Assembly (NCBI RefSeq): GCF_003863365.1
Contig: NZ_RQXT01000031.1
Location: 1-64,000, forward strand
Direction of reading: 5' to 3'
Origin: Mesorhizobium tamadayense
GTDB taxonomy: Bacteria > Pseudomonadota > Alphaproteobacteria > Rhizobiales > Rhizobiaceae
DNA length: 64,000 bases
Position 1 is the first letter of the stretch. Each line of letters opens with the position of its first letter. The notes below the pieces were generated by a model, which did not search any database, was not told where the DNA came from, and saw only the letters and a program-made list of their open reading frames with translations. Positions 46,568-51,959 of the stretch are shown here, piece after piece. Both the position numbers and the translations under genes were made by a program.

Positions 46568-48676
46568 ATGCGTCCCTCCGTCCTCGATCCCCTGTTCGTC
46601 CCGATCACCTCGCTTGCCGGCGTCGGCCCGAAAGTCGGGACGCTGATCGAAAGGGTCGTGCCAGCCGATCTCGGCGACCGTCCCGCACGCGCCGCCGACC
46701 TTCTGTTCGTCTTGCCCAACACGGTGATCGACCGGCGCAACCGCCCCGGCATAGCGCTTTCCGCCGAAGGCCAGATCGTCACGCTCGAGGTGCGGGTCGA
46801 CCGCCATCAGCCGCCGCCGCGCGGCAACAGGTCCGTGCCCTACCGGGTCTACGCCCATGACGACACCGGCGAGATCGCGCTGACCTTCTTCCACGCCCAC
46901 GCCGCCTATCTGCAGAAGATGCTGCCGGAAGGCGAGCGCGTCGTGATCTCCGGCCGCATGGAATGGTTCAACGGCCGCCCAACCATGGTCCATCCCGACC
47001 ATATCGCACCGATCGACGAGGCCGAGGGCCTGCCGCTGGTCGAGCCGGTCTATCCGCTCACCGCCGGCCTGTCGGCCAAGGTGCTGCGCCGCGCCATCGG
47101 ACAAGCGCTGGGCCGCCTGCCGGAATTTCCGGAATGGCAGGACGACGCCTTCATGCGCCGACACACCTTTCCGTCCTTCGGCGACGCGCTCGCCCGCATT
47201 CACAACCCGAAGGACCCGCTCGACGTCGCGGTCGAGGGTTCGGCCTGGCGTCGCCTTGCCTATGACGAGTTCCTGGCCGGCCAAGTGTCGCTGGCGCTGG
47301 TGCGGGCCAAGATCCGCCGTCTGTCGGGCCGGCCGCTGGTCGGCGACGGCCGCATCGTCGAGAAACTGCGCGAAGCCCTGCCCTACAAGCTCACGCCTAG
47401 TCAGGAATTTGCGCTCGGCGAAATCAATGCCGATCTGGCCGATCCCGAACGCATGCTGCGCCTGCTGCAGGGCGATGTCGGCTCCGGCAAGACGGTGGTG
47501 GCGCTGCTTGCCATGGGACGCGCGGTCGAGGCCGGCGGCCAGGCGGCGCTGATGGCGCCGACCGAAATACTTGCGCGCCAGCACCTGTCGACCATCGCGC
47601 CGCTGGCAGAAAAAGCCGGCCTGCGCGTCGCCATCCTGACCGGCCGCGAGAAGGGCCGCGAGCGCAGCGAAACGCTGGAGGGCCTTACCAGCGGTGCGAT
47701 CGACATCGTCGTCGGCACCCACGCACTGTTCCAGGAAACGGTGACCTTCCACGATCTCGTGCTTGCCGTCGTCGACGAGCAGCATCGGTTCGGCGTCCAC
47801 CAGCGGCTTGCCATCACCGCCAAGGGCGACGCGCCGGATATGCTGGTGATGACGGCGACACCGATCCCGCGCACGCTGGTGCTGACCGCCTTCGGCGATA
47901 TGGACGTCTCGAAGCTCACCGAGAAACCCGCCGGCCGCCAGCCCATCCGCACCGTCACCTTGCCGCTGGAGCGGCTGGACGAACTGGTCGAGCGCATGCG
48001 CGATGCGGTGGCCGAAGGCCAGAAAATCTACTGGATCTGCCCGCTGGTCGAGGAATCCGAAGAAATCAAGCTGATGTCGGCGGAAGACCGTTTTGCTTCG
48101 CTGAAGCCGCTGTTCGGCGACCGGATCGGCCTGGTGCATGGGCGCATGAAGGGCGCGGAAAAGGACGAAGCGATGCGCGCTTTCAAGCAAGGCGAGACGC
48201 GCATATTGATCGCCACCACCGTCATCGAGGTCGGCGTCGACGTGCCGGACGCCACGATCATGGTCATCGAGCATGCCGAGCGTTTCGGCCTTGCGCAGTT
48301 GCACCAGCTGCGCGGCCGGGTCGGGCGCGGCGACCGGTCCTCCTCCTGCGTGCTGCTCTACAAGGACCCGCTAGGCGAGACGGCAAAACGGCGGCTTTCG
48401 GTGATGCGCGAGACCGAAGACGGCTTCCGCATCGCCGAGGAGGATCTGAAGCTGCGCGGCGAAGGCGAGTTGCTGGGCACCCGCCAATCCGGCACGCCGG
48501 GCTTCCAGGTGGCGCGCATCGAATTCCATGCCGACCTGCTCGAGGCCGCCCGCGACGATGCCAGGCTCATCCTGTCGCGCGACCCGGAGCTGCAGTCCGA
48601 ACGCGGCCAGGCGCTTCGCCTCTTGCTCTACCTGTTCGGGCGCGATGAAGCGGTGCGCTTGCTGCGCGCCGGCTGA
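46568..48676 (+). CDS. recG: ATP-dependent DNA helicase RecG (702 aa)
   Basis: Reverses stalled forks and processes Holliday junctions. The N-terminal wedge/OB domain (LPLTSLAGVGPKVGTLIE-like start, here FVPITSLAGVGPKVGTLIERV, to about residue 180) precedes the SF2 motor: Walker A GDVGSGKT near 300, DEQHRFGVHQR (motif II), TATPIPRTL (III), ATTVIEVGVDVPDA (V) and HQLRGRVGRGDRSS (VI). The C-terminus is standard. Its last 49 bp overlap the convergent DUF502 gene. Confidence 0.97.
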   Translation: MRPSVLDPLFVPITSLAGVGPKVGTLIERVVPADLGDRPARAADLLFVLPNTVIDRRNRPGIALSAEGQIVTLEVRVDRHQPPPRGNRSVPYRVYAHDDTGEIALTFFHAHAAYLQKMLPEGERVVISGRMEWFNGRPTMVHPDHIAPIDEAEGLPLVEPVYPLTAGLSAKVLRRAIGQALGRLPEFPEWQDDAFMRRHTFPSFGDALARIHNPKDPLDVAVEGSAWRRLAYDEFLAGQVSLALVRAKIRRLSGRPLVGDGRIVEKLREALPYKLTPSQEFALGEINADLADPERMLRLLQGDVGSGKTVVALLAMGRAVEAGGQAALMAPTEILARQHLSTIAPLAEKAGLRVAILTGREKGRERSETLEGLTSGAIDIVVGTHALFQETVTFHDLVLAVVDEQHRFGVHQRLAITAKGDAPDMLVMTATPIPRTLVLTAFGDMDVSKLTEKPAGRQPIRTVTLPLERLDELVERMRDAVAEGQKIYWICPLVEESEEIKLMSAEDRFASLKPLFGDRIGLVHGRMKGAEKDEAMRAFKQGETRILIATTVIEVGVDVPDATIMVIEHAERFGLAQLHQLRGRVGRGDRSSSCVLLYKDPLGETAKRRLSVMRETEDGFRIAEEDLKLRGEGELLGTRQSGTPGFQVARIEFHADLLEAARDDARLILSRDPELQSERGQALRLLLYLFGRDEAVRLLRAG

Positions 48677-49386
48677 GGTCCGGCGCCGAGCGGCGGGTTG
48701 GCGAGCGGTCCTTTGATCGCCTCGCCGTTCAGCGCCACTATCTCGGGCATGACCTCAGGCGCCACCAAGCCGGCCGAAACGATCAGCTTGGCGCCGTCCT
48801 CGATGGTCATGTCGAGCAGCACGATCTCGGATTTAGGCACATACATCAGGAAGCCAGTGGTCGGGTTCGGCGTGCACGGCATGAACACCGCGATCAGCGG
48901 ATCGCCTTCCTGGTCGAGCTTCTGGTTGATCTCGGTTTCCTTCTCGCTGGCCACGAAGACCAGCGACCACACCCCTTTTCGCGGATATTCCACCAGCCCG
49001 ACCTGGCGGAACATGTCGCCCTTGTTCGACAGCACTGTCTGGAAGATCTGTTTCAGCGAGCCATAGATGCCTCGCACCAGCGGCATGCGGCCGAGCAGCC
49101 GCTCGCCGAAATTGACGATGGCGCGACCGACGATGTTTGCGGTCATGAAGCCGATGAAGGTGATCAGCACAAGCGCGACGATCAGCCCGAAGCCGGGAAC
49201 CGGGAAAGGCAGGTAGGTATCGGGGTTGTAGCGCGCGGGAATGTAGGGCTTCACCCAGGAATCGACCCAGCCGATCAAGGACCAGGCGATATAGGCAGTG
49301 ATCGCCAGCGGCGCGCAGACGACGAAGCCGGTCAGGAAATAGTTCCTCAGCCGGGTCATGCCTGAGGTCTTGGAAGCATCCGACAT
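48628..49386 (-). CDS. DUF502 family membrane protein (252 aa)
   Basis: Two transmembrane helices, LTGFVVCAPLAITAYIAWSLIGWV and FPVPGFGLIVALVLITFIGFMTANIVGR, precede a conserved DUF502 domain (LLGRMPLVRGIYGSLKQIFQTV, VAVFMPCTPNPTTGFLMYVPKSEIVLLDMTIEDGAKLIVSAG). A charged tail, GAGPQPARSKRTASSRPNR, is encoded opposite the end of recG. Function unknown; plant homologues affect plastid structure. The overlap implies convergent transcription without a dedicated terminator. Confidence 0.9.
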   Translation of the reverse strand: MSDASKTSGMTRLRNYFLTGFVVCAPLAITAYIAWSLIGWVDSWVKPYIPARYNPDTYLPFPVPGFGLIVALVLITFIGFMTANIVGRAIVNFGERLLGRMPLVRGIYGSLKQIFQTVLSNKGDMFRQVGLVEYPRKGVWSLVFVASEKETEINQKLDQEGDPLIAVFMPCTPNPTTGFLMYVPKSEIVLLDMTIEDGAKLIVSAGLVAPEVMPEIVALNGEAIKGPLANPPLGAGPQPARSKRTASSRPNR

Positions 49387-49533
49387 GGTTCACCGCGGCG
49401 CAGGTTGCGACGCCAGATTAATAAACCGCGAGCCGGTTTGGAATTGCGAAGTTTTTAAAGAACGTTCGTCATGCCCACGACTCCCAAGCAACAAAATCCG
49501 CTTCCGTTCGCGATTGGCCGGAACATCCTTCCC

Positions 49534-49605
49534 TTCGTCATCCACGGGCGGAGCAGGCGCGAAGCGACTGCGCAGACCCGAGGATCCATTCCGTGACGTC
49601 TGCCG
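49534..49605 (+). repeat. 72-bp inverted repeat, left arm (REP-like)
   Basis: The arm runs from TTCGTCATCCACGGGCGGAG to CCATTCCGTGACGTCTGCCG. The right arm at 49975-50046 is its reverse complement with only 3 mismatches out of 72. Within the arm ATCC-A-CGGG pairs with CCCG-A-GGAT around a GC-rich centre, so each arm is itself hairpin-forming, like a REP element. The pair brackets the GIY-YIG gene. Confidence 0.9.
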
Positions 49606-49660
49606 AAGAATACAACATCTCGGGATGGCTGCCTGATCGTCTGGCCGTTATCCTTCTTTC

Positions 49661-49947
49661 ATGACAGGTTATGTCTATATGACTGCGAGCCGAAAGCGCG
49701 GCACTATCTATATCGGTGTCACAAACGATCTCGGCCGCCGAATGCCAGAGCACAAATCCGGTGCCGGCGCCCGCTTAACCAGACGGTACGGCGTAGAGCG
49801 CTTGGTTTGGTACGAAGAGTATTTCGACATTCGTGATGCGACCCAGCGCGAGAAGTCACTAAACGCTGGCCGCGCCAATGGAAGATCGAATTGATCGAAA
49901 AGACGAATCCGGAGTGGTTCGAGCTTTTCCGCGGCACCGGGTGGTAG
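49661..49947 (+). pseudogene. GIY-YIG nuclease (UPF0213/YhbQ type), frameshifted
   Basis: MTGYVYMTASRKRGTIYIGVTNDLGRRMPEHKSG is an intact GIY-YIG core with the catalytic Tyr pair (YVY and YIG), the Arg in GRR and the His in EHKSG. GARLTRRYGVERLVWYEEYFDIRDATQREKSL continues normally. At about 49860-49864 the run CTAAACGC lacks one base relative to the CTAAAACGC expected from the family, so translation leaves the frame and stops at 49894. The family tail KRWPRQWKIELIEKTNPEWFELFRGTGW, with the late catalytic Glu, is encoded in the next frame up to a stop at 49945-49947. The gene lies between the two 72-bp inverted repeats. Confidence 0.8.
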
Positions 49948-49974
49948 TGCCTAATTCTGCACGGCTTTGATCCG

Positions 49975-50046
49975 CCGCAAACGTCACGGAATGGATCCTC
50001 GGGTCTGCGCAGTCGCTTCGCTCCTGCTCCGCCCGTGGATGACGAA
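49975..50046 (-). repeat. 72-bp inverted repeat, right arm (REP-like)
   Basis: Reverse complement of the left arm with 3 mismatches in 72. It starts 27 bp after the true end of the GIY-YIG coding region; the left arm ends 55 bp before its start codon. The two arms and the gene form a unit of about 513 bp. Confidence 0.9.
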
Positions 50047-50135: not shown

Positions 50136-51959
50136 CTATTCCACCGTCACCGACTTCGCCAGATTGCGCGGCTGGTCGACATCGGTGCCCATGAACACGG
50201 CTGTGAAATAGGCGAGCATCTGGATCGGCAGCGCGTAGATGATTGGCGAGATGATTTCCGGCACGTCGGGCAGGATGATCGTCTCCATCGTCTTGATGCC
50301 CGCCTGGGCAGCGCCCTTGGCGTCGGTGATCAGGATGATCTTGCCGCCGCGCGCCGCCACCTCCTGCATGTTCGACACGGTCTTTTCGAAGATGCGGTCA
50401 TGCGGGGCGATGACGATGACCGGCATATTCTCGTCGATCAGCGCGATCGGTCCGTGCTTCAGCTCGCCGCCGGCATAGCCTTCGGCATGGATATAGGAGA
50501 TTTCCTTGAGCTTCAGCGCCCCTTCCATGGCTAAAGGGAAATTGGTGTCGCGGCCGAGATAGAGCACGTCCTTGTAACGGGAGAGCTCGCGCGCGATGCG
50601 TTCGATCTGCTCGTCGAGCTTCAGCACCTGGGTGGCGAAGCGCGGCGCCTCGGAAAGCTCGCGCACCAGACGCCTCTCCTCGTCGCGCGAGATCGTGCCG
50701 CGCGCCACGCCGGCGCGCACCGCCAGCGCAGCGAGAACGGACAACTGGCAGGTGAAGGCCTTGGTCGAGGCGACGCCGATTTCCGGCCCGGCCAGCGTCG
50801 GCAGGACGACATCGGATTCGCGCGCCATGGTCGATTCGCGCACATTGACGACGGCGCCGATCTTCATGCCGGCTTGGCGGCAATAGCGCAGCGAGGCCAG
50901 CGTGTCGGCGGTCTCGCCCGATTGCGAGATGAAGATGGCCGCGTCGTTCGCCGACAGCGGCATCTCGCGATAGCGGAATTCCGAGGCGACATCGATGTCG
51001 ACCGGCAGTCGCGCGTAGCGCTCGAACCAGTATTTGCTGATCAGCCCGGCCAGATAGGCGGTGCCGCAGGCCGAGAGCGCCAGCCGGCCGATCTTGGCAA
51101 AATCGAAGGGCAGCTCCAGCGGCTTCGAGACGCCGGAGACGAAATCGACGTAGTGCGCCAGCGTGTGGGAGATCACCTCCGGCTGCTCATGGATTTCCTT
51201 TTCCATGAAGTGGCGGCGATTGCCCTTGTCGACCATGAAGCTGGTCGACAGCGACTGCTGGCGCTTGCGGTCGACCTGGTTGCCGTCGATATCGTAAATC
51301 GCGACGCTGTTGCGGCGCACCACAGCCCAGTCGCCGTCTTCCAGATAGGTGATGGAATTGGTGAAGGGTGCCAGCGCGATGGCGTCGGATCCCAGGAACA
51401 TTTCGCCGTCGCCATGGCCGACAGCCAATGGCGGACCGTTGCGGGCGCCGACGATCAGGTCCTCGTCGCCCTTGAACATGATCGCCAGCGCGAAGGCGCC
51501 CGAGAGCCGCTTCAATGCCTGGTGCGCGGCCTCGACCGGCTTCAGCCCCTTGGCCAATTCGCGCGCCACCAGATGCGCGACAACCTCGGTGTCGGTCTGC
51601 GAGGAGAATTTGTAGCCGTCACGGACAAGCTCGTCGCGCAGCTCGGCGAAATTCTCGATGATGCCGTTGTGGACGATGGCGACGCCGTCGGAAAAATGCG
51701 GATGCGCATTGGTCTCGTTGGGCACGCCATGCGTCGCCCAGCGCGTGTGGCCGATGCCGATCGTGCCGTCCAGCGGCTCTTCCTTCAGCCGCCGCTCGAG
51801 GTTGATCAGCTTGCCTTCGGCGCGGCGGCGCCCGAGCTGGCCATTCTCGATGGTGGCGACGCCGGCGGAGTCATAGCCGCGATATTCCAGCCGCTTCAGC
51901 GCGTCGACGATGAGCGGCGCCACCTGTTGCTGGCCGACAATTCCGACGATACCGCACAT
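50136..51959 (-). CDS. glmS: glucosamine-fructose-6-phosphate aminotransferase (607 aa)
   Basis: Makes glucosamine 6-phosphate from fructose 6-phosphate and glutamine for peptidoglycan and LPS. MCGIVGIVGQQQV puts the glutaminase Cys at position 2; GHTRWATHG, NEDNAHPH-like NETNAHPHFSDG and SGAFALAIM follow. Two SIS domains (LSACGTAYLAGLISKYW, ISQSGETADTL, ASTKAFTCQ) form the isomerase half, ending in QPRNLAKSVTVE. Full length. No glmS ribozyme fits the upstream region. Confidence 0.97.
   Translation of the reverse strand: MCGIVGIVGQQQVAPLIVDALKRLEYRGYDSAGVATIENGQLGRRRAEGKLINLERRLKEEPLDGTIGIGHTRWATHGVPNETNAHPHFSDGVAIVHNGIIENFAELRDELVRDGYKFSSQTDTEVVAHLVARELAKGLKPVEAAHQALKRLSGAFALAIMFKGDEDLIVGARNGPPLAVGHGDGEMFLGSDAIALAPFTNSITYLEDGDWAVVRRNSVAIYDIDGNQVDRKRQQSLSTSFMVDKGNRRHFMEKEIHEQPEVISHTLAHYVDFVSGVSKPLELPFDFAKIGRLALSACGTAYLAGLISKYWFERYARLPVDIDVASEFRYREMPLSANDAAIFISQSGETADTLASLRYCRQAGMKIGAVVNVRESTMARESDVVLPTLAGPEIGVASTKAFTCQLSVLAALAVRAGVARGTISRDEERRLVRELSEAPRFATQVLKLDEQIERIARELSRYKDVLYLGRDTNFPLAMEGALKLKEISYIHAEGYAGGELKHGPIALIDENMPVIVIAPHDRIFEKTVSNMQEVAARGGKIILITDAKGAAQAGIKTMETIILPDVPEIISPIIYALPIQMLAYFTAVFMGTDVDQPRNLAKSVTVE

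Follow-up and report, generated by a model that had tools for sequence, protein, structure and literature searches.

A small GIY-YIG nuclease gene between inverted CGTC-type REPs in Mesorhizobium tamadayense, probably a broken copy of a mobile element

The GIY-YIG gene and its arms

In the 64-kb stretch of DNA analysed here (64,000 nt, hereafter the window), a small gene of the GIY-YIG nuclease family lies between two inverted copies of a 70-nt repeat. These arms are 97% identical and 373 nt apart, and they form the only inverted pair of this kind that the repeat search found in the window (Table 1). The element is flanked by two minus-strand frames that, following a first-pass annotation of this DNA, we take to be DUF502 and glmS. 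The same annotation had described near-perfect inverted arms framing a GIY-YIG gene, and this was borne out, the gene matching Pfam family PF01541 at 7.5e-15. Its size of about 513 bp for the unit was correct in geometry and becomes 507 bp when the element is measured from GTCAT to ATGAC. The sequence on the outer right side of the element is GAAA. Further arms were not found in the 64-kb window: when up to 3 mismatches were allowed, there were 9 matches, with 7.2 expected, and the only exact matches were the two arms.

Table 1. Features of the element and of its surroundings (positions in the window)
Feature	Position	Strand	Remarks
Flanking frame, presumably DUF502	48628..49386	-	
CTTC immediately outside the left arm	49533..49536	+	
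Left arm	49534..49603	+	CGTC-type REP (GTCATCCACGGG...CCCGAGGATCCATTCCGTGAC); GTCAT on the outer side, CCA tail pointing to the gene
Whole element, GTCAT to ATGAC	49537..50043	.	507 bp
Left inner end, presumed promoter	49604..49660	+	In relatives, similar to half of a REP dimer without the gene, as far as the centre CAGAAT
Small GIY-YIG nuclease gene	49661..49947	+	Open frame 49661-49894 (77 aa); one-base frameshift near 49861-49864; former stop 49945-49947
Right inner end	49948..49976	.	ATTCTG at 49954-49959; similar to the remaining half of the dimer centre
Right arm	49977..50046	-	Inverted copy of the REP; 68/70 bases the same
Flanking frame, presumably glmS	50136..51959	-	

The first-pass annotation had also stated that each arm can form a hairpin. 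Folded singly, the two arms gave -18.1 kcal/mol (z -2.9) and -13.9 kcal/mol (z -1.8) in comparison with shuffled DNA, which upholds the claim to a moderate degree only. The stem of the window arms includes one fixed A-A mismatch, a feature common to 15 of the 160 arms from the genus.

The assignment of the gene to the GIY-YIG family was correct, but the one-base frameshift had been overlooked. The usual C-terminus of the protein (KRWPRQWKIELIEKTNPEWFELF...) runs on one base out of frame to the former stop codon. The window copy is not intact, being either a recent pseudogene or the product of a sequence error. In the same genome, the PF01541 family was identified in two places, the window gene and a site inside a 752-aa frame, which we take to be UvrC.

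Comparison of 13 diverse proteins showed that residues Y7, Y18, R28, H32, E65 and N84 are invariant; across 59 proteins, Y18, R28, H32, E65 and N84 remain invariant and Y7 is conserved in at least 90%. The conserved Tyr, Arg, His, Glu and Asn residues of GIY-YIG enzymes have catalytic roles. A predicted structure of one of the proteins (model pLDDT 96.6) was ranked by fold closest to UPF0213 BH0048 (E 2.6e-4), followed by SLX1 (E 9e-3) and then UvrC; a sequence comparison was also run. Judged by its conserved residues and by this model, the protein has the residues and the predicted fold of a GIY-YIG nuclease. Its size and fold equal those of the UPF0213/YhbQ-YazA proteins (E. coli YhbQ, BH0048 and EF2693). 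It shares the fold of UvrC and of SLX1, a cutter of branched DNA, but it consists of a single Pfam domain of 95 aa, without any further SLX1 or UvrC domain. The NCBIfam search for the nuclease gave only matches below the cut-off. The median dN/dS of the nuclease is 0.07 (1289 pairs), indicating that purifying selection on the protein is strong.

Arms and elements in the genome and the genus

REPs have been sorted into the GTAG and CGTC superfamilies (Di Nocera et al. 2013, PMC3733652). In that paper, CGTC REPs are defined by a tag that reads CGTC or TGTC, by a stem of 8-9 bp with AT at its start and by a CCA tail, and they are arranged mostly as head-to-head dimers. Their loop is usually 4-5 nt, with other loops allowed in Bradyrhizobium and two other species. 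The superfamily includes the Neisseria dRS3 and the Rickettsia RPE-4 and RPE-6 repeats, and the 2013 survey placed CGTC-type REPs in five phyla (PMC3733652). The arms of the window and of the genus agree with this definition in their CGTC tag, in a 9-bp stem that follows GTC and begins with AT, and in their CCA tail. They differ in their loops, which in the genus are much longer than 4-5 nt; short loops were observed in other genera.

The genome to which the window belongs (7.53 Mb in 303 contigs) was searched for arm copies by BLAST alone. The search returned 41 places at E<=10 and 30 at E<=0.0015, two of which are the window element. The arms are thus not unique to this locus; uniqueness would have refuted the first-pass annotation, as would a genome-wide occurrence without association with GIY-YIG genes. 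An inverted partner was present within 200 bp at 20 of the 28 other places, which corresponds to the head-to-head dimers of the CGTC superfamily; 5 of the remaining 8 resemble single symmetrical hairpins. The gene-less dimers consist of an arm, about 60 bp and a second arm, many of them with the centre CAGAATTCTG. Among gene-bearing elements, the readable left inner ends contain CAGAA or CAGGA in 81% of 70 cases, and the readable right inner ends contain CAGAA in 63% of 67. Alignment of inner ends with dimer halves scored 7.6 on the left (5.3 for shuffled sequences, 6.0 for a mid-gene control) and 9.2 on the right (5.2 for shuffled sequences). This support, which rests on alignment scores, is modest. 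Since the inner ends of the elements resemble dimer halves up to the centre, the gene appears to occupy the place of the middle of a dimer. Additionally, three loci (L026, L027 and L030) are mixed dimers of one short-loop arm (CCTCGGGCTTGACCCGAGG or similar) and one long-loop arm.

The RAYT/REPtron/REPIN systems likewise combine a single enzyme gene between inverted REPs with inverted dimers that lack the gene and are scattered through the genome. The enzyme here, however, is of the GIY-YIG family (PF01541) and not an HUH/Y1 protein (PF01797), and the tag is CGTC instead of GTAG. For GTAG-type REPs, the enzymes are known to be RAYTs, which are Y1 tyrosine transposases (PMC3733652), and Y1 genes are present in 24 of 146 genomes of the genus; a RAYT could be imagined to move the REPs described here, with the GIY-YIG gene as a passenger. 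We give this explanation almost no credence. No PF01797 match at E<=0.1 was found in the genome of the window. Of 32 places listed, 20 Y1 loci were checked; a single arm-like site was present within 1.2 kb in 4 of them, and an inverted pair in none. The number of arm candidates does not follow the presence of Y1 genes (medians 53 vs 43, p 0.15), and the accessible part of Di Nocera et al. reports no CGTC REPs at tyrosine transposase genes (PMC3733652). In L429 and L430, the distance between an arm-like site and the middle of a stop-containing Y1 locus is about 66-110 bp; the site is perhaps a REP inserted in that locus.

A match to the gene at E<=0.001 was obtained in 83 of the 146 genus genomes, including that of the window, with 1-10 matches in each; a number of these matches are truncated or contain stops. 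We analysed 90 loci drawn from the better matches, one of which (L059) lies at a contig edge and could not be tested. A copy was considered framed when inverted arms with an alignment score of at least 18 were present within 260 bp on each side of the gene. By this criterion, 88 of the 89 testable copies are framed, the sole failure being L160, compared with none of 177 control windows.

Structural statistics were obtained from the 84 genus elements in which both arms could be delimited by pattern. The uninterrupted 95-codon frame is kept in 69 of them, and element lengths cluster at 505-506 and 517-522 bp. Outward from GTCAT, on both sides, the successive bases are C (99-100%), T (100%), T (90-94%) and C (74-82%). 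Grouping of the 84 elements by their flanks gives 26 groups when agreement of both flanks is required and 16 when one is enough, indicating that the elements occupy many sites, several of which were inherited by several species.

The low divergence between the two arms had been taken as a sign of recent copying or gene conversion. Of the 89 other genus loci, 7 share the flanks of the window element, 6 of these on both sides, indicating that the insertion is not recent. The recency of copying was thus not sustained, and the low divergence is more likely due to constraint or to gene conversion, which remains possible.

Nine stem positions are paired in 143-160 of the 160 genus arms. Compensating pair changes occur at three stem positions, above every shuffle, and the A-A mismatch of the window arm type is at one of these. 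This covariation shows a pairing constraint on the stems. Additionally, when each protein was compared with its nearest protein from a site with unrelated flanks, the stem class agreed in 57 of 76 cases (shuffled mean 33.6, maximum 44). Linked inheritance alone could yield part of this correlation between arm and protein. The number of arm candidates per genome, a crude first-look count used as a proxy, increases with the number of gene copies, for which 11 weak gene matches (E above 1e-10) were set to zero (Spearman 0.55, n=146); the median of the arm candidates is 33 in genus genomes without the gene and 58.5 in those with it.

Framing outside the genus

Three further samples were analysed; the samples overlap in some genomes. 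In the class sample, 159 of 385 genomes match the gene at E<=0.001; of the 29 best loci, 14 are framed at a score of at least 18 and 15 fail, whereas none of 54 controls is framed. The cross-phylum set was drawn from species genomes, in which one conserved pattern gave 580 confirmed matches; the best 80 of these were kept, a biased choice, and framing was observed at 57 of the 80 loci vs 2 of 809 controls. The phylum sample was fairer. A profile of 59 proteins was compared with 398 genomes, 111 of which matched at 1e-12, and one locus per genome was evaluated in 82 genomes outside the genus, comprising the 30 best loci and 52 others, the remainder being unlisted or at an edge. Here, inverted-repeat framing was found at 53 of the 82 loci, with 29 failures.

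A second test was based on the presence of CGTC-REPs on both sides of the gene with their tails toward it. This two-sided motif was identified at 77/89 loci in the genus, 13/29 in the class sample, 59/80 in the cross-phylum set (best 80 of 580) and 37/82 in the phylum sample, and in none of the respective control windows (0/177, 0/32, 0/1285 and 0/286). One or the other test was passed by 60 of the 82 phylum-sample loci, 22 failing both, and the 286 controls of that sample were negative in both tests. The REPs in the phylum-sample flanks include 97 oriented tail-to-gene and 58 head-to-gene, both orientations being expected for arrays. With framing near-complete at the genus loci and common across phyla, and with arms that are repeated, the suggestion of a REP-like system in which a GIY-YIG gene stands in the place of a RAYT, possibly as a small mobile element, was supported.

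It could be argued that a host or selfish gene merely favours REP-rich intergenic spots, or that the REPs serve as terminators, without any functional link between gene and repeats. REPs are indeed intergenic, and in REP-rich genomes one-sided matches arise by chance: the motif is present on at least one side in 53 of the 1285 cross-phylum control windows, and at 73 of the 80 gene loci (best 80 of 580). The complete absence of the two-sided motif from three sets of controls (0/1285, 0/177 and 0/286), compared with its frequency beside the gene in the same samples, makes the lack of a link very unlikely, and the arm type tracks the protein. The controls were windows and not a named set of small genes. 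As for the REP as a plain terminator, the compensating changes in the arms and the two-sided framing argue against this being the whole story.

The arms of other groups vary in sequence and mostly share the pattern GTCA(T/C)-stem-TCCA. An example is CGTCATTCCCGCGAAAGCGGGAATCCA in a Nitrospira MAG (L284), which is near-identical in Rhodanobacter (L290). Twelve named records of a plasmid collection were also compared, without window controls. Clearly framed copies were observed in Shinella, Sphingobium, Novosphingobium, S. meliloti and Aeromonas, those of S. meliloti and Shinella being located within longer REP arrays. In the one N. gonorrhoeae record, dRS3-like repeats form a run that includes the gene. 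Scores of 17-18 were obtained for Sinorhizobium C101, Spirosoma and Planktothrix, and the repeat in Planktothrix is of a different kind. In this comparison, no REP framing was found for the Rhizobium tumorigenes gene or for E. coli yhbQ, which was included as a control; in this respect yhbQ differs from the gene described here, despite the similarity of the proteins. Since many loci, including these two, are unframed, the element accounts for only part of the protein family. At 2.2-4.9 Mb, three of the records labelled as plasmids (NZ_CP119140.1, NZ_AP026896.1 and CP090106.1) are probably chromosomes. In the Planktothrix agardhii plasmid (L302), the neighbours of the small GIY-YIG gene are an MmeI-like restriction-modification gene on one side and the DISARM gene drmA on the other, and the inverted repeat is a different one.

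Site comparisons and the proposed element

Three sites were compared between genomes, with 30, 30 and 16 loci, respectively (76 rows), and their states were classified by a simple-rule script. At the third site (that of L143), 16 of 30 loci could be placed, and 14 were left out because a flank had no match within reach. A full gene is present in 8 rows, a gene remnant in 6, including the window copy, a single-hairpin scar in 5 and one arm in 2. One row has a gene-less dimer of a different REP type (L113), 37 are empty and 17 contain other DNA without arms. Empty DUF502-glmS junctions, which the first-pass annotation had proposed to look for in relatives, were found at 14 of 30 loci, the window's own locus being among the 30. 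Filled and empty versions were thus observed at all three sites, in comparisons between species; no movement within one species was caught.

The scars examined, in G003 and G081 at one site and in G075 and G103 at another, are single symmetrical GTCAT...ATGAC hairpins. They retain the outer CTTC and GAA, the gene and the tails are gone, and the joint is within the half-stem common to both arms. At the site shared by G003 and G081, G060 is empty, and CTTC is followed there by GATGGGG.

Scars of this kind show that elements collapse, which would also suit an enzyme that trims REP hairpins for genome protection, or a phage-defence enzyme located near REPs for another reason. The SLX1-like fold and the annotation of E. 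coli YhbQ as a DNA damage response nuclease are compatible with such a role. In Caulobacter, XRE regulators of both host and phage origin are reported to repress two GIY-YIG genes, CCNA_00744 and CCNA_01405, which have been suggested to play a part in phage infection; the accessible part of that paper makes no mention of REPs (PMC10688885), and REP framing of the two genes is unestablished. On the other hand, the copies of the gene are patchy, multicopy and decaying, and they are found at changing sites; where gene copies are many there are more, not fewer, arm candidates; and the PADLOC scan gave only a weak match (PDC-S14, E 0.015) in one of two proteins. We consider either role highly improbable.

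Based on these observations, we propose that the locus is probably a broken copy of a mobile element of roughly 0.5 kb, formed by a single small GIY-YIG gene of SLX1/UvrC fold between inverted CGTC-type REPs, with REP cleavage and movement inferred. As part of this proposal, the gene-less REP dimers and single hairpins of the same genome would be its non-autonomous and collapsed derivatives. The SLX1-like nuclease would be the dedicated enzyme of CGTC REPs, in a unit analogous to, not homologous with, the RAYT/REP elements. CGTC REPs, by contrast, were described as repeats that "apparently lack a dedicated transposase" (PMC3733652).

In the mechanism that we envisage, the nuclease would recognise the CGTC-tagged hairpin of its own REP type when this is extruded, on the lagging strand or as a cruciform, and would cut near the CGTC foot of the hairpin. 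Repair might then copy or move the arm-gene-arm unit, or an arm-arm unit in trans, into a new intergenic place, so that gene-less dimers would ride along with the enzyme. Pairing of the repeated half-stems could delete the gene and leave one hairpin as a scar. The analysis established only anatomy, distribution and selection; cutting, the order of the steps and the choice between homing and movement of the whole unit are our inferences. To our knowledge, there is no cleavage assay for the enzyme. Besides this and the lack of any movement caught within one species, the points that weigh against the proposal are the unframed loci, the head-to-gene REPs in the phylum-sample flanks, the arm candidates in genus genomes that lack the gene, the 2-nt direct repeat beside the elements, the part that linkage may have in the arm-protein correlation, and the modest scores of the inner ends.

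A different order of events would be that of a homing endonuclease, in which REP dimers already present are cut by the nuclease and gene conversion between the arms copies the nuclease gene into their centre, the REPs being a target that something else spreads. The gene is located where the dimer centre CAGAAT/ATTCTG would be, arm candidates are present in genomes without the gene, and in S. meliloti and Shinella the copies are surrounded by longer REP arrays. GIY-YIG is, moreover, a classic homing-enzyme fold (PMC1564403). The catalytic domain and the mobile context are thus shared with GIY-YIG homing endonucleases and Penelope elements, but no intron or intein was seen here, the 95 aa contain no additional DNA-binding or reverse-transcriptase domain, and hairpin REPs lie at both ends. 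Homing enzymes usually have DNA-binding modules, which are missing from this bare domain. A gene-less dimer, the substrate that homing requires, was encountered only once in the 76 rows, and it was of another REP type. The 37 rows that are empty of arms suit insertion of the whole arm-gene-arm unit and therefore favour it over homing, although most of the genomes are not close relatives. Homing is consequently an unlikely explanation, yet one that retains some weight.

Regarding the wider significance of the mobile element proposed above, we see about an even chance that it represents an unrecognised class distributed over several phyla, with a lone GIY-YIG nuclease, CGTC-tagged hairpin ends and no known transposase, and that this class is the source of bacterial CGTC REPs, including Neisseria dRS3 and the GTCATTCCCGCGAAAGCGGGAATCCAG-type palindromes. 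A search of the open-access literature, which leaves out subscription papers and preprints, yielded two papers that hold either CGTC-REP terms or GIY-YIG together with REP or RAYT terms in a bacterial setting, and neither was seen to tie the nuclease to the repeats: the accessible text of PMC3733652 does not mention GIY-YIG, and in that of PMC9465073 the two words occur only as separate entries of a gene table. A REP with a dedicated enzyme is already known in kind; as far as the open-access literature goes, what is new is an enzyme unrelated to RAYT. CGTC REPs are widespread and their enzyme was left open by the 2013 survey; with a consistent partner gene, the question can be put to the test using a single small protein and a single hairpin. 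If movement is proven, the element would constitute a separate class of mobile element. Additionally, if the proposal is true, bacteria would have a second, unrelated route to REP populations, based on a nuclease and hairpin ends and not on a tyrosine transposase. Many of the small genes whose only annotation is GIY-YIG family protein, excinuclease ABC subunit C or hypothetical protein would then gain a role as well.

The sequences outside the arms were also inspected. Direct repeats of at least 3 nt beside the 84 elements showed no clear excess over shuffled flanks, that is, there is no clear target duplication of this length, of the kind that would be expected for a classical IS or MITE with a DDE transposase. 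A 2-nt direct repeat at offset 5 was above the shuffled level (15/84 vs 5.9). In some elements, the inverted similarity extends beyond the arms; in L036, L173 and L182, it does so for about 18-40 nt in a site-specific manner, as if the flank had been copied inverted. A box near GATTRGCCGAA is located about 25-30 nt outside many arms (L001, L006, L016-L018, L034 and L036) and could be an element end or a preferred target. Finally, another intergenic repeat, about 180-220 nt long (CTCCCCC...GGGGGAGATGTCCGGCAGGACAGAGGGGGG), is present at the same intergenic sites in relatives (L186, L189, L195, L197, L199, L202, L204 and L316), and it sometimes abuts the arms (L038, L173 and L177).
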